A program made the position numbers and the translations under genes. Positions 45,681 through 57,337 of a stretch of DNA of 64,000 bases are shown piece by piece. The stretch covers positions 1-64,000 of the forward strand of contig JABWCF010000004.1 of assembly GCA_013359255.1 (NCBI GenBank), in the 5' to 3' direction. Source of the DNA: Flavobacteriales bacterium. GTDB taxonomy: Bacteria > Bacteroidota > Bacteroidia > Flavobacteriales_E > Vicingaceae. Below the pieces are notes generated by a model. That model ran no database searches, was not told the DNA's origin, and was given only the letters and a program-made list of their open reading frames with translations. Within the stretch, counting starts at the first letter, position 1. The number at the start of each line of letters is the position of its first letter.

Positions 45681-45713
45681 GAGTAGAATTTTGTGAAATT
45701 CCAAGATTTATAT

Positions 45714-45742
45714 TTAACATAATATTAATTATAAGACAAAAC
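45714..45742 (+). repeat. TTATAAGACAAA repeat, copy A (left edge of island)
   Basis: The sequence TTAACATAAT, 5 bases, TTATAAGACAAA, then ACG lies 33 bases after rsmG. The two half-motifs also occur together at 57308-57337 (copy D), just before the MOSC gene, in the same orientation. Copies B and C lie nearby in reverse orientation. A and B form an imperfect inverted repeat with a loop of about 30 bases. Possible roles are a mobile-element boundary, a recombination site or a regulatory palindrome. Confidence 0.55.
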
Positions 45743-45753
45743 GATATTCTTTT

Positions 45754-45933
45754 TTAGTGGTATGTTTTTAGTTCGTTTTTTCTTATAATTCTTATTATGT
45801 CTCCACTTCGTTTCGCCCTAGCGGGTAAATAGAACGCACCATCCAACGCTTCTAATTTTTCGTATTCAATATAATTCTGCACAAATTTAAAAATATTGAA
45901 TTCTAAAGCGATTAGATTTATTCGGTATATCAT
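45754..45933 (-). CDS. Possible 59-residue ORF inside the repeat cluster
   Basis: A minus-strand ATG at 45933 opens a 59-codon frame (MIYRINLIALEFNIFKF, ending RKNELKTYH) to a TAA at 45754-45756. It has no recognised domain. Its start overlaps repeat copy C and its end runs through copy B, so it may be a chance reading of repeat DNA (part reads PARAKRSGD). Low confidence that it is a gene. Confidence 0.2.
   Translation of the reverse strand: MIYRINLIALEFNIFKFVQNYIEYEKLEALDGAFYLPARAKRSGDIIRIIRKNELKTYH
45774..45801 (-). repeat. TTATAAGA repeat, copy B (inverted)
   Basis: On the minus strand the sequence reads GACATAATAAGAATTATAAG followed by AAAAAACG. It is the inverted partner of copy A, with one change in the TTATAAGACAAA half (TTATAAGAAAAA). 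Confidence 0.5.
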
Positions 45934-45959
45934 TTTGTCTTATAATTAGACATTATGTG
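45933..45959 (-). repeat. TTATAAGACAAA repeat, copy C (inverted)
   Basis: On the minus strand the sequence reads CACATAATGTCTAATTATAA then GACAAAA, again ACATAAT plus TTATAAGACAAA with a 6-base spacer. It lies directly upstream of the 59-residue ORF start, where it could also act as a promoter. Confidence 0.5.
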
Positions 45960-46369
45960 TAAATAGCCGCACATTGCCTTGCTTTTTTTAAAAATTTATT
46001 CTTTTGCCCTCGCTCAAAAAAATTATGTGGTAGTTCACTTGCATACAAAAAATGCGTTTGCCTTAATAATTTTAAGGCTTTAATTCGCATTTTTCTATGC
46101 TGCGTTCACTGTCGTTTCTTTTTCTTTTTTCTTGATAAAAAAGAAACAAAAAATCAAGAAAGAAATATGCTATCTACGCTCTCTGTACAAATGCTAGTAA
46201 TACTATTAAAGTAGTTCCGATTATTATCGGAAAACGTAAACGCCTTTCATGTATTACTAAGCATTTGCACATTCACAGCCAAACGCTTGCCCGCATTTCT
46301 TTCCTGCCAACACGCATTTCTATTTAATAATTTTAGATAATTATGTTAAATAAAAACTTAGAGTAATGG
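45960..46369. other. Non-coding hairpin-rich region at left of island
   Basis: No gene is seen in this stretch. It contains several nested inverted repeats. One pair is 46048-46056 with 46086-46094, holding an inner pair 46060-46066 with 46072-46078. A second is TTCTTGAT (46129-46136) with ATCAAGAA (46153-46160). A third is an imperfect 19/20-base pair, 46185-46203 with 46251-46270, holding TTCCGA/TCGGAA at 46215-46232. It could be a structured RNA or a cluster of repeat elements. The TTGATAAAAAAGAAACAAAAA string resembles intergenic repeats I recall from other Bacteroidota genomes (from memory, unchecked). Confidence 0.45.
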
Positions 46370-46424
46370 TTACATATTACTTAAAGCAAACTTGCTTAAC
46401 TCTGGAATAGCTTTGGTTAATTCA
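46370..46424 (-). pseudogene. 3' stub of a 144-residue-type gene
   Basis: On the minus strand this reads LELTKAIPELSKFALSNM and stop (TAA at 46370-46372). It matches the end of the intact 144-residue protein (FTKGIPELSKFALNNILNEL), including 16 identical bases TTAAAGCAAACTTGCT (46381-46396 versus 47268-47283, plus strand). It has no start of its own; the AbiV gene stops at its border. The matching 5' stub is at 49468-49515. Confidence 0.8.
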
Positions 46425-47255
46425 AGATTTTTTAGTTATATACTTTTCACCAATAGAATTTATTTTTGGAATACTTTTATCTACAAATTTTTCCCATTCC
46501 TTACTTTCTATAATATCTCGTTTGAAATTATCTAATTTTCCTGCCATTGTTTGAAACAGTTTTCCTCTCTTTTTTTTTACTACATTAATAGTTTTTTGAA
46601 CTCCAAACGACAACTCTTTAATTGAGTTTACATCTTTAGAGAATCTCTTTTTTTCTTCTCCTTTATTCCACCATTCACTTTCTAAAATTGAGGATAGATT
46701 AAAAGATATCCAATGAATACAATTCAATTTTTCTTTTATATCTTCATAATCTTTTTTAGACATATCAGTTGGAGTGTTTCCTCTTAAAACATCTACATAT
46801 AATCCCTTTTGTCGATTATTTTCAATATCTCTATAGAATTCTATTTTTTCACTAAAAGAATCTATTTTTTCGACAAGCCAGCTCTTAAGTTGCTTAATAT
46901 TTTCTGGGTTATTAAATAAATCTATCATTGCTTCTGGTCTTGGGTCTTTTTTAATAAGAACAAGCACTTTTTCTAAATCCTTTATTATTTCATTAAAACA
47001 CTCTACAAAAAAACCAATGTAATGTCTAAAATGGTGTTGTGTGAAAATATATTCAATTTCATTTAAATTACCCAGTGGCACTCCTAAATCAATTAATTGA
47101 AGCGTAACTGCTTTACTTCTTTCTTCAAATGCTGTAACCAAAATAGAGCTAGCTGTTCCATAACTACCTTTGTTGGCTAGATGTTCTGCGTCATCTAACT
47201 TATCCTTTGCATTTTTTATGCATTCTTCAATCTTTAATTTTATATTATAATTCAT
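46422..47255 (-). CDS. abiV: AbiV family abortive-infection protein
   Basis: The 277-residue protein matches the AbiV family. It has the N-terminal helical pattern LANKGSYGTASSILVTAFEE followed by RSKA, a QHHFRHY segment, and the conserved NRQKGLYVDV. AbiV in lactococci blocks phage growth by interfering with phage translation after binding a phage protein. Here it is the last gene of the second defence cassette and overlaps the 144-residue gene by 11 bases. Its end runs directly into a gene stub, so its C-terminus may have been set by the insertion. Confidence 0.82.
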   Translation of the reverse strand: MNYNIKLKIEECIKNAKDKLDDAEHLANKGSYGTASSILVTAFEERSKAVTLQLIDLGVPLGNLNEIEYIFTQHHFRHYIGFFVECFNEIIKDLEKVLVLIKKDPRPEAMIDLFNNPENIKQLKSWLVEKIDSFSEKIEFYRDIENNRQKGLYVDVLRGNTPTDMSKKDYEDIKEKLNCIHWISFNLSSILESEWWNKGEEKKRFSKDVNSIKELSFGVQKTINVVKKKRGKLFQTMAGKLDNFKRDIIESKEWEKFVDKSIPKINSIGEKYITKKS

Positions 47256-47679
47256 TCAATATATTATTTAAAGCAAACTTGCTCAATTCTGGAATTCCTT
47301 TAGTAAATACTTTGATTTCCCAGTTAGAGAACTGTTTGAAGCGTTCGCCTTGGTCGTTATCGATAAAAATGTAATTATCGGGTTTTGCGAGTTGTGTTGA
47401 AGGGATTAAATACAAAACTGGTTCAATGTCTTTCATAAACAGCACCAACGCCACCCAAAGGTTGTCTTTTGGTTCTCCTAAAACTTCTTTTGAGATTTTA
47501 ACGCTCCGTTCTGTTTCTAAATTAATGGGTTGTAAATACAATTCGTGATAATTACCTGCTTTGGTTTTGACAATAAAATCTACTCCCTCTCTCCCACTCT
47601 CGTTTTGGAAAACATCTAACCTTGTTCGCATTAATTCAAGCTTGGTAAAGTGTTGGGCGTATTTGTAGAGTTTATCCAA
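47245..47679 (-). CDS. 144-residue protein, possible degenerate PD-(D/E)XK fold (intact copy)
   Basis: I do not recognise the family with certainty. Residues 30-55 (GREGVDFIVKTKAGNYHELYLQPIN) have the D...E-x-Q/K rhythm of DUF4365-like restriction-endonuclease folds, but the lysine is not in the usual place. The rest predicts alternating strands and helices, ending IPELSKFALNNILNEL. The start codon is TTG at 47677-47679; the next methionine is residue 17. The gene lies 5 bases after the 271-residue gene. Stubs of a close relative lie on both sides of the cassette, so this protein is tied to the island's history. Confidence 0.5.
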   Translation of the reverse strand: MDKLYKYAQHFTKLELMRTRLDVFQNESGREGVDFIVKTKAGNYHELYLQPINLETERSVKISKEVLGEPKDNLWVALVLFMKDIEPVLYLIPSTQLAKPDNYIFIDNDQGERFKQFSNWEIKVFTKGIPELSKFALNNILNEL

Positions 47680-47684
47680 TTAAT

Positions 47685-48500
47685 TTAAAAATCAAGTTTT
47701 GTTTGAATTTCAATATTAGGATGAAAAGTTCCAATTATCATAAATGGATTTCTACCAGTAAAATGATGAACTTGTGTTGTTCCTAAGTAGAAATATAAAT
47801 CTTTTGTTTTTGCAAAATCATTAAAATACTTTTTCTTAACATCTTCACAGGCAAGTTTCTCATTCCCGTTATGTCTTCTAAAACTGTTCCAAAACAAAGC
47901 TCCAACTTCCCAGTCCTCAATCATCATTCTACGTTTTGTACCATCTGTACCTTCAAAAACATAACTGAACTTATAGGGTAATTTTTTTACAACTTCAAAC
48001 TGACTCTTATCTTCAAACATATTCATTTGTTTAAGTTGTTCAGTTTTTGATTTATCCCATTCTCTTTCTACTTCTTCCCAAACAAAATCGTGAATGATTG
48101 TAGGTTTAAATACAGCCAATGAAGTACAAATTGATTTGTCTTTTGCTTCTTGAATAAGAAATTCCATGTCTTCATAAACTTTATTAAGAACAATCTCTTT
48201 TCTTGCTTGCCAATTATTTGTTGTTTCAATGTGCCCAACAACTTTTATTGGATTTTCTACTTCAATATTAACTGGTCTATGACTTTCAGGTCTGAAATCA
48301 CTTTTATTTTTGGTTAAATCTACTTCAACCCAATCATACTTTTTGTATTGATTTACGTAATCCAAAGTTCTAAAAGGGATTGGATATAATCGAATCCAAT
48401 TACCATCCTCTGTAAATCCAGCAGTACAAACTAATTCATCATACTTTTTTGAAATGGTAGGATACGTTTTAACCGTTATAAGAACACGAGTTTTTGCCAT
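47685..48500 (-). CDS. Unrecognised 271-residue cytoplasmic protein
   Basis: The protein has no signal peptide or membrane span. It opens KTRVLITVKTYPTISKKYDE, then GNWIRLYPIPFRTLD, WVEVDL, and HDFVWEEVEREWDKSK, and ends FTGRNPFMIIGTFHPN. The conserved look of these blocks suggests a real family that I cannot name; I associate it with DUF488 genes only because of its neighbour here. It lies 3 bases after the DUF488 gene and 5 bases before the 144-residue gene, so all are co-transcribed. Confidence 0.55.
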   Translation of the reverse strand: MAKTRVLITVKTYPTISKKYDELVCTAGFTEDGNWIRLYPIPFRTLDYVNQYKKYDWVEVDLTKNKSDFRPESHRPVNIEVENPIKVVGHIETTNNWQARKEIVLNKVYEDMEFLIQEAKDKSICTSLAVFKPTIIHDFVWEEVEREWDKSKTEQLKQMNMFEDKSQFEVVKKLPYKFSYVFEGTDGTKRRMMIEDWEVGALFWNSFRRHNGNEKLACEDVKKKYFNDFAKTKDLYFYLGTTQVHHFTGRNPFMIIGTFHPNIEIQTKLDF

Positions 48501-48503
48501 TCA

Positions 48504-49400
48504 TCATAAATGTTGTATCGGAATATTCCAATTGGGTTGGTTGGCGAGAGCTTTTACAACTCTACCTCTATGACACATACATTCTGTTGCTTCAAAACAA
48601 GTTAATGCAACTCGATTGTATTTTTTTAGTAAATCATTGATGCTCAATAAATGTTCTTTATTTTCTACTAAAACCGTTTTTTCATATTCCTTAAAAAGCA
48701 CTTGGTAATCGTTTAAAGTATTTAAGGCTTGTCTTTTTTCGGAAATAATACCCAATTCAGGTATGTGCAAATACTTTATACCTACATTTTCGCAAGCATG
48801 TTTTAATTGGTTTTTTGAAAAACCATACTTCATACTTAATGGATTTTTCCGAACATCGCATAATAACTTTACATCATTAATAATCAAATGATTTATGTAT
48901 GTTTCTAGCGATTTACCTTCATAACCAATGCTAAACAATTTGGTTTCGGTAAAAGTTCGTTTTTGTTTTTCAACTTTCTCTAGTTCTGTTTTTGTTAAAA
49001 CCTGATGAGCTATTTCACTTTTAATGGCAAAATAAGGGTAATTCCTGTAAGTATATTTAATCAATTCTTCCCGAGACATTTCAGTATAAGCACTTTTCAA
49101 TTTTACCATTAAAGCTTTGTCTTTTTTGCTTAATGTTATTGTAAAATCTTCATCAGTACTTTTTACCCATTGTGGCGAATTGGCATTTTTACTTTCTTGT
49201 ACTAAACCGTATTTTCCGAGAGTTTTTAAATCTTGGTTGGCTTGAAAAGAGTAACAACCGTATTTGTAAGGTACAAAATCAAATGCCTTTTTCTCTTGCC
49301 ATCTGGTGTAAATAAATAGCAATTTTTGAAGACTTGTTTTGTTCAGTTGCCCATCAAAGTTCTCCAAAAGTGAAAGCAATATTTTTCTACGGTAGTACAT
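48504..49400 (-). CDS. DUF488 protein with an N-terminal DUF4065-like domain
   Basis: The first 90 residues (KILLSLLENFDGQLNKTSLQ, then KLLFIYTRW and FDFVPYKYGCYSF) resemble the DUF4065/SocA (Panacea) fold seen in antitoxins. The C-terminal half is DUF488: FSIGYEGKSLETYINHL, LLCDVRKNPLSMKYGFSK, YLHIPELGI, and the cysteine-rich CFEATECMCHRGRVV. DUF488 is often found in defence and stress loci; its activity is unknown. It has its own TACCTTTG box ending 4 bases before the ATG, so it is the first gene of a separate cassette. Confidence 0.75.
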   Translation of the reverse strand: MYYRRKILLSLLENFDGQLNKTSLQKLLFIYTRWQEKKAFDFVPYKYGCYSFQANQDLKTLGKYGLVQESKNANSPQWVKSTDEDFTITLSKKDKALMVKLKSAYTEMSREELIKYTYRNYPYFAIKSEIAHQVLTKTELEKVEKQKRTFTETKLFSIGYEGKSLETYINHLIINDVKLLCDVRKNPLSMKYGFSKNQLKHACENVGIKYLHIPELGIISEKRQALNTLNDYQVLFKEYEKTVLVENKEHLLSINDLLKKYNRVALTCFEATECMCHRGRVVKALANQPNWNIPIQHL

Positions 49401-49404
49401 GCTA

Positions 49405-49412
49405 CAAAGGTA
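49405..49412 (-). promoter_or_regulatory. Probable -7 box TACCTTTG of the DUF488-AbiV cassette
   Basis: The minus strand reads TACCTTTG, an exact TAnnTTTG match, ending 4 bases before the ATG at 49400. The transcript would be leaderless or nearly so. It shows the cassette can be transcribed on its own. Confidence 0.5.
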
Positions 49413-49454
49413 CTAACTCTTTATTGAAAGTAATTGTAAAATTAAATGAAACGC

Positions 49455-49470
49455 TAACAATTAATTGTTA
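49455..49470. promoter_or_regulatory. Perfect 16-base palindrome TAACAATTAATTGTTA
   Basis: The palindrome TAACAATTAATTGTTA lies 43 bases upstream of the DUF488 -7 box and overlaps the stop codon of the 5' stub. It could be an operator for the cassette or a mark of the insertion junction. Confidence 0.35.
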
Positions 49471-49515
49471 AAATAGCTTGGTAAAGTGTTGGGCGTATTT
49501 GTAGATTTTTTGCAT
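49468..49515 (-). pseudogene. 5' stub of a 144-residue-type gene
   Basis: The ATG at 49513-49515 directly follows the GHKL gene's stop codon and reads MQKIYKYAQHFTKLF then TAA. It matches the start of the intact copy (MDKLYKYAQHFTKLE). Thirty bases are identical (49476-49505 versus 47640-47669). The reading is cut after codon 14, at which point the DNA becomes unrelated. With the 3' stub at 46370-46424 it shows where a gene was split. Confidence 0.85.
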
Positions 49516-51540
49516 TTATTTTTCCGATATATCAATAATTTGTTTTGTAACACCATTAGATGAAGCAACATCTAATTTTACACCTTTTAATTGTAGTTCT
49601 TCCTTAATTGCATTTTTATCAAATTCTAATTTTTCTAAAAGGTAGCTATGTTTGATTTCAAATGTTCTAAATAAATCATCCCAAGTCATTGCATATATTT
49701 CATATTTGCCTGCTTGATGAACTAAAAATCTTTTTCCTTTATCTTTAAATGCTTCATACTGTTTTTCTATATAATCATCAACTTTATTACTTATTACATA
49801 AAACTTCCATCTTCTTGTTTGACTATTAAATTGCTCTTCTTTCATGATAAAATCTAAATAATCATCAATTTGTCTGAATTGCTCTTTTCCAATTGTTACC
49901 GTAGGTCTTTTTAATTCAACCATGATATTTTCTTCTAATTCATATTCCGAATCATGTGTATCTGGAATATTTCTCTTTCGACACATAAAAATATCAGGTC
50001 GTTTTTTCCAATCGTAAGACTTTAATTTTTGAGGCTCTTTAACATCGTCAATTATATGTAGATACTCACCTAATAATTGCTGAAAATTTTGGTCGGCAGA
50101 GGCTAAATGATATTGCTCTCCAAACAACCAATAACTTTCTTCAATTGCTTTTTGAATGTGATTTCTCTCAGTTGTAAACTTCTTTAATTCAAAAACTAAT
50201 GTTTTTAAAAGAGCGACTACTTTAGCTCGATTCTCAATAAGTTTAATTGTTGCCAATATTTTTGAAAAACTACTTTTCCTTAAAACACTCACAAGTTCGC
50301 TCCTTTCTTCTTTTGAAAGTTGTACAATGCCTTCTACTATTTCAAGAATATTTTCCCTTTCATCAGTATCTAATAAAAGGTTAAGAAAACCTAAAAAGGT
50401 TTTTTCTTGCTCTGCCCTTAATCCTTTGAAAACTTTAGGTTGTACACAATACAACTCTTTAACAACATTTATTAAATCTTTCTTTCGTTCTAAATCGTAC
50501 TTGTTGTTTGCAAATTTTGGAAATACTCCTTTTGCTTCAAAACGCTGTACTAACTCCTCAGCTGCATTTCCTCTAATAAAATCCTTTTGTTTCCTGAATA
50601 AATACTCATTCAAATCGTTCATTAATGCCTTGAACAATTTATTATTTTTGTTTCCGCTAAATAAATCATTTCTTTCAGATTCATCACTACTTAACTCAAA
50701 AGCATTAAAAAAATCCGATTCTATAAAAACGCTGTGGTGAAAATCAATAGCATTGTTATTATAGGATGTCAATTTCTTAGCTACTTCCCTTTTCTCTTGA
50801 TTAAGAAAATAGTAATAGTATTTGTCTCCAATGCTATGAGACCATCTTAGATAAGTAATTAAAAACTTATGTTCTTTTTGCTCTTCATCCTTAATAATTA
50901 ATTCTTTTTTATCGTTATCAGGAATCAAATAGTCATATTCAATAGGTTCTCCATTTATTTCTAAAGTATAACCAGCGTCTTTATTTAAAAATAGAAACCA
51001 TCCAAATTCTTTAGCCAAATAATCTTTAAATTCTTGGTTTGAAAAGGAATAAGCTGTTACTTCAAACAATTGTTCAAGTATTACTTCTGTTCCTGTTTGT
51101 TTTGATTTTGAAACCTTTTTATTCTGATCTTCAAACTCATCTTTCTTAGTTTTAGAAATGACAATATCATATTCTAAAAACTTATTATCTTTTTTATAAA
51201 CCGTATGCCAAGTGGCTTTGCCTGCAAATGTTGAAAATGCAAAACGACCTTTTCCTTTCTTCCCTCTATTATATGAAGACCTTTGAAAAGAATTGCGTTT
51301 TACTGAATCCAAAAACTTTCCGAAAGTTTGACTAAGGTTTTCAAACTCTATTCCTTCTCCATTATCAGCAATAACCAATTTTGTTATATGGTCAACTTCA
51401 TTGGATTCAAAGCGAATATCAATCTTAGTTGCTTTTGCATCATATCCATTCCATATTAATTCTGATACAGCTTGTTTGTAGTCTTTTGGCAAACCTGCCG
51501 ATTCAATACTACTATCACTAATATTTGCTTTATTTTTCAT
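49516..51540 (-). CDS. GHKL ATPase with C-terminal PD-(D/E)XK-like nuclease motif
   Basis: The 674-residue protein has a Bergerat ATP-binding fold at the N-terminus: the N-box E27/N31/D34 (SELIWNGYDAKAT), D59-N-G-E-G63 (IADNGEGIE), and RGKKGKGRFAFS for the lid. A long helical middle follows. The C-terminal region has D516 in RPDIFMCRKRN and E542-x-K544 in MVELKRPTV, the D...ExK pattern of a PD-(D/E)XK nuclease, resembling the DUF4263 (Shedu) nuclease. The family is not one I can name. It is the third gene of the operon, 16 bases after the RloC-like gene. It may be an ATP-gated nuclease; this is inferred. Confidence 0.75.
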   Translation of the reverse strand: MKNKANISDSSIESAGLPKDYKQAVSELIWNGYDAKATKIDIRFESNEVDHITKLVIADNGEGIEFENLSQTFGKFLDSVKRNSFQRSSYNRGKKGKGRFAFSTFAGKATWHTVYKKDNKFLEYDIVISKTKKDEFEDQNKKVSKSKQTGTEVILEQLFEVTAYSFSNQEFKDYLAKEFGWFLFLNKDAGYTLEINGEPIEYDYLIPDNDKKELIIKDEEQKEHKFLITYLRWSHSIGDKYYYYFLNQEKREVAKKLTSYNNNAIDFHHSVFIESDFFNAFELSSDESERNDLFSGNKNNKLFKALMNDLNEYLFRKQKDFIRGNAAEELVQRFEAKGVFPKFANNKYDLERKKDLINVVKELYCVQPKVFKGLRAEQEKTFLGFLNLLLDTDERENILEIVEGIVQLSKEERSELVSVLRKSSFSKILATIKLIENRAKVVALLKTLVFELKKFTTERNHIQKAIEESYWLFGEQYHLASADQNFQQLLGEYLHIIDDVKEPQKLKSYDWKKRPDIFMCRKRNIPDTHDSEYELEENIMVELKRPTVTIGKEQFRQIDDYLDFIMKEEQFNSQTRRWKFYVISNKVDDYIEKQYEAFKDKGKRFLVHQAGKYEIYAMTWDDLFRTFEIKHSYLLEKLEFDKNAIKEELQLKGVKLDVASSNGVTKQIIDISEK

Positions 51541-51556
51541 ATAAATTTTATCTTAT

Positions 51557-53851
51557 TTAGTTTAACCCTCCTAAATACTTTAATTGACCAGGGAATTTAT
51601 TTTCAATTAAACCTAGTAACTCTTCGGTTGCTAATTTTAAAGCATCAGAATCAATTGGGTCTTCATAATTATTGAAATCCTCATGTATATAATCGTCAGC
51701 AACCAATTTTAGATTTACAGGCATTTCTTCTAACCCAAATATTTGCTCAATATTTTCTTGGGATAAATCATAAAAATGGAAACTACAAACCGTCTCTAAA
51801 ACTTTTCTTAAATCAATTCCTACATTATCTTCAATAGTTCCTTTTTTAAACTCTGTTAATCGTTGTAAAGAAGTCATATATTCCGATAGTTTATTCCCGT
51901 TATTTTTGATTAATTCAATTTTATCTAGTCTTTTAATTAAATTATAGAAATTACTGTTTTTCTTGAAAACATTACTATTTAAAATATTATAAAATTGTAG
52001 GTTATGAGTAGTAATTATAATTTGAGGGTTAACAAGATTACCCTTGTTCTCGTAAACTTCTTGATAAATTTTGGGTAATGATTTTAGCACAGAAGCTATT
52101 CCGTGAAGGTAGTTATAACTAATACTAGAAATAGGGTCATCAATTATAAAAGATGTATTAGCAAAATCTTCGTACTTATTAATTTTTTGAATTGTTTGTG
52201 CTAAAAAATAAGTAAATGCTATAACAGATTTTTCACCTTGACTTATTAACTTAGTTTTTTTAGAAATATCATAATTTTTATGAAGTTGTAATTTTAACTC
52301 AAACTCTCCATCAACCTTATATTTATCTAATCCAATTTTCTTTAGCAATTTGTTTTGAAGGTCTGAAATTGCTTGTTTCTTTTCTTTTGTTTTCGACTTT
52401 GACTTTTCAACTATTATCTCGTCATTAGTTTTTTTAATCTCTGACTTTAACCTTTCAATTTCTTTCCTGATTGCTTCACACTCTTTATGGTATTGAACTA
52501 ATTCATATTCAACAATGTCTTTTCTCAGTTCAGTTTTTCTTGCAGCAGTACTGGTTAATTTCGTATTGATAGTATTTATTAAAGTATTATTCTTTGTTAC
52601 AGATTCGTTGTAGTTATTGATAAAAGCGTTTATTTTTTCTGATATTTTCTTTATATCCTGAGTTTTTTCATTGAAATCATTTTCCAAATCCTTTTTCTTA
52701 TTCTTAATTACCTCAATCAAATCTTCAATATCAGTTTGTATGCTTGATATATTTTTTACTTCATTCCAATTATTAGTAACAGCAAGTGTCTTAGATAAAG
52801 AAGCGATATTCTTATCAAGCCCAGCATCAATTATTATTTGGTTTCTCTTAATTGTATTAATTACATTGTTTAAACTCTCTTCAAATTCATTCAGCTTAGA
52901 AATAGTCTTGCTTTTTTCTGAGTCAATATATTCTTGGTAAATTTTAACAATATCAATATTTGATACACTTTGTCTGCAAAATGGGCATTTTTCATCTGAA
53001 CAATGGTTTAGACCATCTTCTATCCACTTTTTGGTAACTTTTTCAATATGTTCTTCAACCTCTTTTTGTATATCTTCAAATTTGAAACTTTTGTGAATAT
53101 TGTTCGTCACTAAATCATTAAAAGCAATATCATTTAGTTTTGATAAAACATTTTTTATTTTATCGTTTTCATCAATACTCTCAATATCCTTAAAAGTATT
53201 CTTTGGATTACTTTCTCCTAATTTTGCTTGTAATTCACTTATTACATCTGTTTTATAAAAATTTTCTTCAGATAAAATTTGATCATAAGTATTTCCTTTT
53301 GCTCCGTATTCTTTCTTAAAAGTTTTTAGTCGGTCAGAAATTCCAGTTTGAATTTTCTCCTTTTCTAATTTAAGTAGTTTTTCATGTTCCCCCTTCTGTT
53401 TTTCAAGCGACTTAATCTTTATTTCATTTGAATCAACAGTTCCAACAACTATTTCTCCGTTGTGTTTTTTATTCTCACAAAAATCAGGAACATCAATATT
53501 TTGTTTCAAAAAATCTTCATTATAAACAAAGAAAAATTTTGAATTTGGTACTTCAACTTTTTGCTCGCTTATGATTGTACCATCAATCAGTTCAATTTCA
53601 AATTGTATTTTCTCATGTTTATCTGTTGCTTCAACAGAAATTAAATCATTTAGCTGCTCAATATCTATTTTGTCCGACTGTAGAAAAGATAACAATCTAG
53701 AAATAGTTGTTTTTCCAGTACCATTTAAAGCATAAATAATTGCATTTTTAATTTTACCCGATTCGCCTTTGCTATTTGCAGTTAAATCATTTAATGATTG
53801 GAAATCAATTAGATTTCTAATGTTTTTTATTTTTTTGATTGATTTTATCAT
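51557..53851 (-). CDS. RloC/PrrC-like AAA_13 ATPase, putative anticodon nuclease
   Basis: The 764-residue protein has a Walker A loop (YALNGTGKT, residues 40-48), ABC signature (LISQGEKSVIAF), Walker B (FIIDDPISS) and H-loop (IIITTHNLQF). Two coiled-coil arms flank a zinc-hook CPFC (C289, C292), preceded by His283-Cys284. The C-terminal domain has R682 and E686 (LRKVLETV) and a histidine at 723 (DYIHED), matching the Arg-x3-Glu...His triad of the PrrC/RloC tRNA anticodon nuclease. A zinc hook is the mark of RloC rather than PrrC. The start overlaps the methylase stop by 4 bases, so the two are translationally coupled. Nuclease activity is inferred. Confidence 0.8.
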   Translation of the reverse strand: MIKSIKKIKNIRNLIDFQSLNDLTANSKGESGKIKNAIIYALNGTGKTTISRLLSFLQSDKIDIEQLNDLISVEATDKHEKIQFEIELIDGTIISEQKVEVPNSKFFFVYNEDFLKQNIDVPDFCENKKHNGEIVVGTVDSNEIKIKSLEKQKGEHEKLLKLEKEKIQTGISDRLKTFKKEYGAKGNTYDQILSEENFYKTDVISELQAKLGESNPKNTFKDIESIDENDKIKNVLSKLNDIAFNDLVTNNIHKSFKFEDIQKEVEEHIEKVTKKWIEDGLNHCSDEKCPFCRQSVSNIDIVKIYQEYIDSEKSKTISKLNEFEESLNNVINTIKRNQIIIDAGLDKNIASLSKTLAVTNNWNEVKNISSIQTDIEDLIEVIKNKKKDLENDFNEKTQDIKKISEKINAFINNYNESVTKNNTLINTINTKLTSTAARKTELRKDIVEYELVQYHKECEAIRKEIERLKSEIKKTNDEIIVEKSKSKTKEKKQAISDLQNKLLKKIGLDKYKVDGEFELKLQLHKNYDISKKTKLISQGEKSVIAFTYFLAQTIQKINKYEDFANTSFIIDDPISSISYNYLHGIASVLKSLPKIYQEVYENKGNLVNPQIIITTHNLQFYNILNSNVFKKNSNFYNLIKRLDKIELIKNNGNKLSEYMTSLQRLTEFKKGTIEDNVGIDLRKVLETVCSFHFYDLSQENIEQIFGLEEMPVNLKLVADDYIHEDFNNYEDPIDSDALKLATEELLGLIENKFPGQLKYLGGLN

Positions 53852-56800
53852 ACTTCCTCCTCCACAATTTTAATTTCTTCTTCTGTTAACCCATAAAGCT
53901 GATAAACCATTTTATCAATCTCCCCATCTACCCTATTGATTTCCGATTTTAATTCCTGAGCTTTTTGTTTCTGCTCATTGAAATATTGCATCCATTCGGC
54001 TTCTTCCGATAAACTCAACTGTACTTTGGCTTTTTTCAATTCTTTTAAAAAGTCCTTAAACTCCAATCCATACCAGTTTTGCAACTTGGTTGTGAGTTTT
54101 TCGATTTCAAATTTGCTTTGGAGTAAAGTGATTACTTGATTGATATTTTTGTGAAATTCAATTGTTTTTTGAATGATATCGTCTACTTTTTGAGCTATCT
54201 CTTTTTCAGTATTGGTTGTAGGAATTTGTATGGGAAATTTCCTAATATCTCCAATCAGCACTTTAGGAAAAGTAGTCCTTTTTCCTTTAGGTGAAGTTTT
54301 CAGATTGTACCATGAAATCAAAGTAGAATTAATTACTGCAAGGAGATACTTGTCTGATAGTTTACTAATATTAATACATGAAATTATACCTGGGTCATGA
54401 TATAATTCTTCTTCAAAAATAGCAGCAGAAATTCTTGGCGGATTACCTCCAGTTATCTCCTGTATCAATATTCTATTGCTATTAAAATATTTTGGCTTTC
54501 TTGGTCTGTGAAGCCAATTACCATATTTAAGGTATTCTTTATTACTTAAATCTATCCCAAATCTCTTTATTGCCCTACCTTGAACCCATATACCATATTC
54601 GTCATTTTCTTTAATATTACTATGGTAAATACGTTCTTTAATTTGCTCTTTTGTCAAATGTTCTGTCGAGTAAGGAACTATACCTTGACAAACATCTAAG
54701 AAATCTTCTCCCCTTTTCGATTTCTTTTCAATTTTGTTGATAATCTTAATATCTCTATCGTCCTGCCAAATTTGAAATTGTTTATCATCAGACTTCCTCC
54801 AATTTTCAATATCGGCTTTTTGGGAGTTACTAAAATCATAAAATATATCAATAGACTTTGATTCTACATGGAAAATTTCACATTGCGAATTTTCAACTTG
54901 TTTTGTTAATATAAATACAATAGGATTTACACTTGCATCTTCAAAAACCGTGTATTTATATGTTACAATTATATTTATTCCATAATGTTTGAGAACATGT
55001 TCTCTTACTTTTTTGGCTTGTGGTATGTTTATCCATGTATCAGGAGTTATGAACCCAAGTTTCCCATTTCTTTTTAGTAGGGAATTTACTAATTCAATAA
55101 AGAAAAAATATATTTCATAATTACCTTGAAAAGTCTCAAAATTGGAGGAAACAAATTGCTTCGTTTCATTATCCATATAAGCTCCATAAGGTGGATTTCC
55201 AATAATTACATCAAAACCACCTTTTTCAAAAACAGTTGGAAACTCCTTTTGCCAGTTAAAAGCCTTCTCCCCTGCTACGCATGGGTCGTCAATTAAAGAG
55301 TTTCCGCATTTAATGTTGTTGTTTAAACTGGTTAGTTTTCTGCCTTTTTGTGCAGTTCTGAGCCACAACGAAAGTTTGGCTATATCAACGCTTTCATCGT
55401 TAATATCAACGCCAAAAATATTTTTTTCTAAAATGTGGTTTTCTACTCCCGGAAACTCAAAAGCGTGTCCCAACAATTGCGATTCTAACTCGTCAATGTA
55501 GGTGTGTTCTTCTATCAAAAACTCCAAAGCTTGGTTTAAAAAAGCACCGCTACCACAAGCAGGGTCGCAAATGGTAATGTTCAACAACCAATTTCGGTAG
55601 GTTTGCAGGTTTTCGTCTAATATCTTTACGGTATCTTTTTTTCGGTTTTGTCTGCCTTTGGCGTATTCTTCATCAACAATACCCAATTCGGTTTTCTTTT
55701 CTTCGCAAAGTTTGCCAACGGTATTTTCTACAATGTATTTGGTAATGTATTTTGGCGTATAAAAAACTCCGTCTTTTTTTCGTTTGCTTTTGCTTTTATC
55801 CAGTTCTTGCCCTTCAATTTCGGCAGTGATGTGTTCAATTTCGTTGAGCGAGTTTTCAAAAATATGTCCGAGTATGTTCACATCTACTTCACTTTGAAAA
55901 TCGTATTTGGTTAGTTTCATTACGTTTGGATGCAACATTTCATCATCCAACACAATGTTGTCTAACACTTCATCGGGCAGAAACAAACCACCGTTGTAAG
56001 CAAAAATATCATCAACCGTTTTTTGTCCTTTTCGCCCTTTATCAATGTAACTAAAATACTGTTTAAAAATGTCGTACAAAGGTTTGTAGGCATCTTCTTG
56101 TTTCAATACTTCCCAACGGTTTACAATTCGTGAAATAGAATTTGGAGGCAACAAACCGCTATCTTCGGCAAAAAAGATAAACAAATAACGGTCGAGCAAT
56201 TTCTGTGTTTTCTTGAAGAGTAGTAATTTATCTTTTGCACGACTGTTCTTTACCATGTTTTGCCACATATCATTTCTGAAAGTAGCATAATCTTTATACA
56301 ATTGTTTGGTGATTTTTTCTTCTTCGAGTAAACTTTCCTCTTTTACTTTTAGCGGAACGCCATTCAGTAAATTGTCGGCTCTTAAACACAGCCAAAGCAA
56401 TTGAAATTCAGTTTCGGTAAGTGTAAAAAGGTTGAATTCTAAATGCTCTACCGAATGATGAATAAAGAAACGTAGTTTTTCAAAATTGGAAGTAATGACA
56501 TACACACAACCTGTTTGGTTGTTTTTGTAATTAAATGCCTGAACATTTATTTTATCTAAATCTTTGGTGTCCGTTCCTTTCAGTTCTATAACACCCAAGG
56601 CTTTCCCATTTTGCAGAATAGCACCATCGGCTTTTTTCGCACCTTTTTCGTTTTTTAATTCAGTAGTTAAATTAAAATTCGGTTGTGGATTTAAAGTATA
56701 ACCCAAAATATCAACAAACAATTCACGCAAAAAGCCTTCTTGAAATTGTTCCTCTTTGGCATCTCTAATATTTTGCTGTATGGCAGGATTATGAAAATAA

Positions 56801-56889
56801 GCAGTAAACTTTTGGTAAGCAGCTTTAACCGCTTCCGTATCCTGTCCGTTCAGGTGTTTATTGAGTACCGAATTTTGAAAAAATGCCAT
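53848..56889 (-). CDS. Type IIG-like restriction-modification enzyme (single chain)
   Basis: The 1013-residue protein combines an N-terminal PD-(D/E)XK nuclease (D88...E102-x-K104 in VIELKG), a helical connector, and an adenine N6-methyltransferase. Motif I is CDPACGSGAFL (D442-G448) and motif IV is GNPPYG (N565-Y568). The last 350 residues are the target-recognition domain and a helical tail (Eco57I/TaqI-like C-terminus). This is the order of a type IIG/IIL enzyme in one chain. It is also like PglX of BREX, but the nuclease end argues against that and no other BREX gene is present. First gene of the operon. Base composition changes within the target-recognition part. Confidence 0.88.
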   Translation of the reverse strand: MAFFQNSVLNKHLNGQDTEAVKAAYQKFTAYFHNPAIQQNIRDAKEEQFQEGFLRELFVDILGYTLNPQPNFNLTTELKNEKGAKKADGAILQNGKALGVIELKGTDTKDLDKINVQAFNYKNNQTGCVYVITSNFEKLRFFIHHSVEHLEFNLFTLTETEFQLLWLCLRADNLLNGVPLKVKEESLLEEEKITKQLYKDYATFRNDMWQNMVKNSRAKDKLLLFKKTQKLLDRYLFIFFAEDSGLLPPNSISRIVNRWEVLKQEDAYKPLYDIFKQYFSYIDKGRKGQKTVDDIFAYNGGLFLPDEVLDNIVLDDEMLHPNVMKLTKYDFQSEVDVNILGHIFENSLNEIEHITAEIEGQELDKSKSKRKKDGVFYTPKYITKYIVENTVGKLCEEKKTELGIVDEEYAKGRQNRKKDTVKILDENLQTYRNWLLNITICDPACGSGAFLNQALEFLIEEHTYIDELESQLLGHAFEFPGVENHILEKNIFGVDINDESVDIAKLSLWLRTAQKGRKLTSLNNNIKCGNSLIDDPCVAGEKAFNWQKEFPTVFEKGGFDVIIGNPPYGAYMDNETKQFVSSNFETFQGNYEIYFFFIELVNSLLKRNGKLGFITPDTWINIPQAKKVREHVLKHYGINIIVTYKYTVFEDASVNPIVFILTKQVENSQCEIFHVESKSIDIFYDFSNSQKADIENWRKSDDKQFQIWQDDRDIKIINKIEKKSKRGEDFLDVCQGIVPYSTEHLTKEQIKERIYHSNIKENDEYGIWVQGRAIKRFGIDLSNKEYLKYGNWLHRPRKPKYFNSNRILIQEITGGNPPRISAAIFEEELYHDPGIISCINISKLSDKYLLAVINSTLISWYNLKTSPKGKRTTFPKVLIGDIRKFPIQIPTTNTEKEIAQKVDDIIQKTIEFHKNINQVITLLQSKFEIEKLTTKLQNWYGLEFKDFLKELKKAKVQLSLSEEAEWMQYFNEQKQKAQELKSEINRVDGEIDKMVYQLYGLTEEEIKIVEEEV

Positions 56890-56998
56890 TTAATTTGTGC
56901 TGTATTTAAGGTCAGAAATTGAACCCGAAAGATACAGATTAATTGATATTTTACCCTGATTTTTAAAGAGAATTTATTAAGGCAAAGTAAGATGATTT

Positions 56999-57076
56999 GG
57001 GCGTGCCCTAAAGGTCGGGCTATCCGCTATATCTTTCTGTGAAAAACAGAAAGGATGCCGCTTCTATCCCTCACGC
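56999..57076. repeat. REP-like palindromic element
   Basis: The element begins GGGCGTGCCCTAAAGGTCGG and ends CTATCCCTCACGC. Its ends pair (GCGTG with CACGC, GGG with CCC) and it has a central hairpin CTTTCTGT...ACAGAAAG. Similar GGGCGTGCCC...TATCC...TCACGC sequences are a familiar dispersed repeat in Bacteroidota genomes as I recall them, and in other phyla REPs are moved by RAYT transposases. Only one full copy is in this window. Confidence 0.55.
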
Positions 57077-57270
57077 AGCTAAAAAATAAGTAAAGCTGAA
57101 TTGTAGTGCAACGAAAATCATTCACACTAATAAAATAAAAAAGACGTGAATAAAAAGCTTTACCCATTTTTCGCTAAAAGAAAGCGGTATATAAGCGTTA
57201 AAAATTTGCTTTAAGTGAACCGCAAATTTTCAACCCTTACATGATTTATTTTTAATAATTTTTTTTGCCC

Positions 57271-57296
57271 TTTTTAAAGAATTAATTCTTTAAAAA
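57271..57296. terminator. 26-base perfect AT-rich palindrome, possible terminator of the MOSC gene
   Basis: TTTTTAAAGAATTAATTCTT followed by TAAAAA is a perfect inverted repeat. It lies 55 bases downstream of the MOSC gene's stop (57352, minus strand) and ends in T on both strands, so it could terminate that gene. Confidence 0.45.
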
Positions 57297-57307
57297 CCTA
57301 AGCTATA

Positions 57308-57337
57308 TTAACATAATGCAATCCATTATAAGACAAA
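57308..57337 (+). repeat. TTATAAGACAAA repeat, copy D (right edge of island)
   Basis: TTAACATAAT, 8 bases, TTATAAGACAAA. The two half-motifs match copy A (45714-45742) in the same orientation, and the copy lies 14 bases from the end of the MOSC gene. The differing spacers (5 versus 8 bases) argue against a simple recombination site of fixed length. Confidence 0.55.

Follow-up and report, generated by a model that had tools for sequence, protein, structure and literature searches.

The window, by which we mean the whole 64,000-nt stretch of DNA analysed here, carries on its minus strand a type IIG restriction-modification (R-M) gene followed by a gene for an ABC-type ATPase that resembles the anticodon nuclease RloC. 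Both genes, their coordinates, their strand and their 4-base overlap had been given correctly in the initial annotation of this DNA. The IIG stop and the RloC-like start share the letters ATGA (...GAAGTATGATAAAATC), and we infer that the RloC-like gene is read by translational coupling to the IIG gene. Beyond this pair, and absent from the initial annotation, the same strand continues with genes for a GHKL ATPase, PDC-M19A and PDC-M19B proteins, x144 and AbiV, and the whole run is flanked by dif-like sites. The features are as follows.

about 57306..57336, minus strand: modified dif-like site with a 9-nt spacer, in direct orientation, at one end of the island
53848..56889, minus strand: type IIG restriction-modification enzyme, 1013 aa
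51557..53851, minus strand: RloC-like ABC-ATPase (AAA_13 gene), 764 aa
51560..51934, minus strand: predicted anticodon-nuclease/HEPN C-terminal domain (residues 640-764 of the RloC-like protein)
49516..51540, minus strand: GHKL/HATPase_c_3 protein, 674 aa, with a weak HSDR_N-like region
49475..49522, minus strand: x144 5' remnant, directly after the HATPase gene
48504..49400, minus strand: PDC-M19A, DUF488 domain protein
47685..48500, minus strand: PDC-M19B protein
47245..47679, minus strand: x144, a 144-aa family-specific gene
46422..47255, minus strand: AbiV (HEPN_AbiV) protein
46374..46421, minus strand: x144 3' remnant, directly after abiV
45937..45963, plus strand: inverted dif-like site, about 220 nt from dif
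45712..45739, minus strand: chromosomal dif, TTGTCTTATAA-TTAATA-TTATGTTAAAT (11-6-11), at the other end of the island

Anatomy of the IIG and RloC-like proteins

The IIG protein matches Eco57I (1e-43), TaqI_C (3.3e-13) and, weakly, HSDR_N in Pfam, and REase_MTase_IIG (1e-298) in PADLOC. Its N-terminus contains D88...E102-L-K104, which looks PD-(D/E)xK-like, N6-methyltransferase motifs are present at residues 442-448 (DPACGSG) and 565-568 (NPPY), and the target-recognition domain (TRD) is TaqI_C. The protein combines a predicted nuclease, N6-methyltransferase and target recognition in a single chain, which is the definition of a type IIG R-M enzyme.

Davidov and Kaufmann defined RloC by its ABC motifs, a CxxC zinc hook, a C-terminal R-x3-E-x36-52-H motif and a length of 658-897 aa (PMC2610378), and the window protein displays every one of these sequence features. 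Like RloC of Geobacillus kaustophilus and Acinetobacter baylyi, it has an ABC ATPase split by a CxxC zinc-hook coiled coil, and its C-terminal motif and size lie within the published ranges. The complete ABC-type ATPase set that had been claimed for it is present (Walker A N43..G46-K47-T48, S537-G539, DD571-572 and H616), and N43/G46/K47, S537/G539, D571/D572 and H616 are conserved among aligned relatives; the first Walker A glycine is replaced by Ala, as in 4/14 relatives, one of them a PrrC. Every residue of the hook (C289-PF-C292) and of the C-terminal triad (R682-x3-E686-x36-H723) also sits where it had been reported. The CxxC is kept in 46/46 proteins of alignment A3 and is flanked on both sides by long helices in a structure model, and zinc binding is predicted. 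Two positions next to the triad are unusual for RloC and set the window protein apart from it: I679 replaces a conserved N three residues ahead of R682, and I722 replaces the Ser preceding H723.

The triad is conserved in close homologues, a point on which the initial annotation had made its reading depend: R682, E686 and H723 are invariant in all five members of the closest subfamily, which consists of plasmid, viral and Bacteroidota relatives at 24-25% identity. Across 15 aligned proteins the R and the E are each found in 15/15 and the H in 13/15, and in a set of 46, most of them encoded on viral contigs, the R and the E are kept in 41/46 and the H in 28/46. Some of these mostly viral relatives form an apparent subgroup with a degenerate triad; that of the window protein is intact. 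The triad residues are also the sole invariant columns across 25 C-terminal domains, a partly circular result, as these domains were selected mostly for an intact triad.

Profile searches place the protein in the RloC family. The whole protein matches AAA_13 in Pfam (1.7e-43) and both PDC-S06 (2.5e-83) and PrrC (5.5e-16) in PADLOC, with the PrrC profile covering residues 514-732. Taken by themselves, the last 125 aa match PDC-S06 (1.8e-8, profile positions 627-747 of 752), and a C-terminal profile of mainstream RloC gives a weak 10.2 bits, compared with 7.8 for the best of 500 shuffles and 9.5 for a real PrrC. Judged by sequence, the match of the protein to its profiles is far above chance. 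Single-protein scans of genome contigs and viral contigs found no close RloC relatives, and a scan with the closest subfamily gave only one locus (L195). Sequence searches of the PDB matched Rad50, AriA and coiled coils but no structure of PrrC or RloC. PrrC itself is about 340-420 aa long, hookless and located in a type I hsd locus; the window protein has 764 aa and a hook, and the island contains no hsd genes. The RloC layout proposed at the outset is supported by this anatomy and by the PDC-S06 and PrrC matches, and we accept the ATPase as an RloC-family protein with predicted tRNA cleavage.

In a model of the whole protein (pLDDT 71, poor at the zinc-hook apex), the ABC head has a fold that resembles Rad50/SMC heads (Z up to 17.8). 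The C-terminal domain, modeled separately (pLDDT 83), is all helical. Foldseek gave no match to it below E 1, and none reaches E 0.001; in a structural second look the best 13 matches are HEPN-domain proteins, including Las1, HepT toxins and Csm6. The structure prediction proposed as a check thus returned a HEPN-like domain, but at Z of at most 7.6, below the level that the tool considers safe for helical bundles. RloC and PrrC are assigned to HEPN in the available part of a published survey (PMC3710099), and the HEPN-like model agrees with this assignment, short of proof.

The position behind the IIG family

We surveyed the neighbourhoods of 89 loci of the IIG family, with the downstream count limited to loci with at least 1 kb following. 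A same-strand ORF lies within 60 nt downstream of the IIG gene in 51/76 loci, compared with 10/72 upstream. PADLOC model counts (slot 208, upstream 47) are inflated by redundant models and are not per gene, and were not used as a test. The 49 downstream proteins fall into 46 unrelated groups; occupants include nSTAND3, GmrSD, DUF4238, DUF2971, OLD-like (OLD/GajA), SIR2_2, Mrr_cat and ApeA HEPN proteins, as well as Abi_2, RhuM, HD phosphohydrolase and Swt1-type HEPN proteins. An exact 4-nt overlap behind the IIG gene is found in seven loci, the window included, and nSTAND3, DUF4238 and DUF2971 proteins are among the genes so joined.

Among the IIG genes of the class survey, the one most similar to that of the window along the full length (locus L086) has an nSTAND3 gene behind it with the same 4-nt overlap. 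Outside the TRD the two IIG genes share about 88% nucleotide identity, which starts 3 nt before the start codon of the IIG gene, is interrupted by the TRD, resumes at the 3' end and stops 10 nt beyond the IIG stop. We read these limits as a probable recombination boundary.

RloC-like genes are also located about 2 kb behind two other IIG genes of the family, with one main gene between in each case. Both belong to a different PDC-S06 subfamily from the window protein.

L155:5248-7446: RloC-like gene behind IIG
L160:15132-17381: RloC-like gene behind IIG

Since L155 and L160 have RloC-like genes loosely behind the enzyme and L086, the nearest relative, has nSTAND3, the gene pair for which a neighbourhood survey had been suggested is recurrent but not fixed. 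A link of RloC homologues to R-M genes is likewise seen at L155 and L160 but not on plasmids, where none of the inspected relatives lies beside R-M genes. From these neighbourhoods, the position behind the IIG gene is a variable plug-in slot for unrelated effectors, of which RloC would be one option. Because many occupants have no known family, the slot may be a place to seek new abortive-infection genes.

An island between two dif sites

The pair is held in an 11.6-kb island (45712-57336), between the chromosomal dif and a modified dif copy beyond the IIG gene. The dif core has a single 0-mismatch copy in the genome, and its right arm is identical to the one in the dif of E. coli. Most genomes of this Flavobacteriales family have one occurrence of the motif, and a reversed control has no match in nearly all of them. 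The cumulative GC skew of the window reaches its maximum close to dif, its later fall coming partly from the one-strand genes of the island. Most island-bearing relatives have a counterpart of the inverted site 84-432 nt from dif. A long-spacer site lies to the same side of dif as in the window in 8 of the 13 genomes for which more than 12 kb was available, whereas 5.5 Mb of unrelated control loci contain the pattern once. The other five genomes (G012, G021, G023, G024 and G026) have neither the long-spacer site nor the inverted site near dif, and some related genomes have an empty dif site. The dif end of the window (45700-45975) folds as single-stranded DNA better than shuffles do (z -4.4); a folded hairpin as a general property of dif ends was dropped after an ungapped complementarity test in 12 genomes was not significant.

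Integrative mobile elements of the IMEX type, such as GGI and LME-1, are described as bounded by a wild-type dif on one side and by a modified copy on the other (PMC9765430). The island likewise has a dif copy at each end and no recombinase of its own, as Pfam found no integrase among its genes. Unlike the known elements, it carries defence genes as cargo, and it is IMEX-like on the strength of its sequence. This organization suggests that the island may be mobile by means of host XerCD; a position at dif would account for the movement of pairs that lack an integrase, and it defines their ends exactly.

The x144 gene occurs in R-M/effector islands at the dif of related genomes, and the window has, besides the intact gene, two remnants of it, as if modules had been inserted by recombination between copies. 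The GHKL HATPase was considered as an obligate partner and rejected, its homologues adjoining neither RloC nor IIG genes of the window type. A congeneric genome has, at the corresponding chromosomal place and with 91.6% syntenic DNA on one side, an MmeI-type enzyme that overlaps a NACHT protein by 4 nt and is followed by x144 and AbiV. In another genus, HsdR-HsdS-PrrC-HsdM and then x144 lie beside the same kind of site.

Proposed guarding and coupling, and the wider pattern

The operon link between the RloC-like gene and the type IIG gene, as originally proposed, is supported. We found no description of RloC coupled to a type IIG enzyme in the literature searched, but linkage of RloC to R-M systems has been reported, for type I/III in 8 of 73 cases (PMC2610378), and the window pair differs from these in overlapping a type IIG gene. 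HEPN families are generally linked to R-M in the available part of the HEPN survey (PMC3710099), where HEPN effectors, RloC-like ones included, are encoded with R-M systems as multi-pronged defence; that part does not describe a IIG enzyme with a single position for interchangeable effectors, or a location at dif.

In published work, DNA breaks switch RloC on by way of the protein's own ATPase, and the R-M system of A. baylyi does not silence it (PMC3874168). Because RloC in the literature has its own switch and goes unsilenced by R-M, an autonomous second line would fit better than a guard relation. We consider it probable that the locus is a two-layer anti-phage cassette at dif, in which a self-regulated, DNA-end-sensing RloC is coupled to the IIG gene without being its dedicated guard. 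What is observed here is the anatomy of the genes with their motifs and family assignment, the variability of the slot and the boundaries of the island; to this the explanation adds a presumed trigger, tRNA cleavage, translational coupling and XerCD mobility. The IIG enzyme would modify host DNA and cut unmodified phage DNA, and the RloC-family protein would be made from the next gene by translational coupling. The Rad50-like ATPase of this protein and the coiled coil with its zinc hook would keep the C-terminal HEPN RNase inactive in the absence of a trigger, which would be DNA ends or breaks produced by the IIG enzyme itself or by phage; activated RloC would then cut tRNA anticodons, so that translation and phage growth stop.

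The initial annotation had instead given the IIG enzyme the role that EcoprrI has towards PrrC, that of a guarded partner which keeps RloC inactive and frees it when a phage inhibitor strikes. That precedent, a 4-nt overlap that could set the ratio of the two proteins, the RloC-like genes behind the IIGs of L155 and L160 and the pairing of HsdRSM with PrrC on the dif island of a related genome all speak for such an arrangement, and a predicted HEPN anticodon nuclease does adjoin an R-M system in both cases. PrrC, however, is short, hookless and housed in type I hsd loci, whereas the window partner is a single-chain IIG enzyme. A closely similar IIG bears the unrelated nSTAND3 effector, the slot is heterogeneous, the RloCs of L155 and L160 are of another subfamily with an intervening gene, and RloC has a switch of its own. 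We do not retain the guard relation for this pair and think it quite unlikely. Also unlikely in our view is that the two are independent defence genes, placed on one transcript of a defence island but functionally uncoupled: defence genes do cluster, the same run includes HATPase, M19AB and AbiV genes that look separately acquired, and the plasmid RloC relatives keep no R-M neighbours, but mere co-location sits poorly with the strong downstream-versus-upstream asymmetry of the slot and its repeated exact overlaps.

It is less probable than either that the ABC-HEPN effector is inactive or cuts another RNA and is hence no anticodon nuclease. I679 and I722, the degenerate triads of several related viral proteins and a best structural match of Z 7.6 for the C-terminal domain would be in keeping with this; the intact R, E and H, their x36 spacing inside the published 36-52 (PMC2610378) and the invariance of the triad in the closest subfamily argue against it.

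If the two-layer cassette is right, type IIG enzymes join those of type I/III as partners of RloC, and the pair is one case of a general rule in which a conserved restriction gene is joined to an exchangeable backup effector. The greater interest lies in this wider picture of an island anchored at dif with a plug-in position for effectors. We regard as evenly balanced the broader proposal that dif in this Flavobacteriales family is a landing place for modules of an R-M system and a second-line killer (IIG+RloC, MmeI+NACHT and HsdRSM+PrrC), and that in a widespread IIG family of Bacteroidota the stop codon of the enzyme is a standard exchange point for unrelated abortive-infection effectors; restriction and suicide would then be inherited together as a unit. 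Among three further dif modules (L327 5699-18982, L325 8410-18992 and L339 7627-18962), one genome has an apparent C5-methyltransferase cluster and two have apparent RND/metal efflux genes, identities that were read by eye from the translations.
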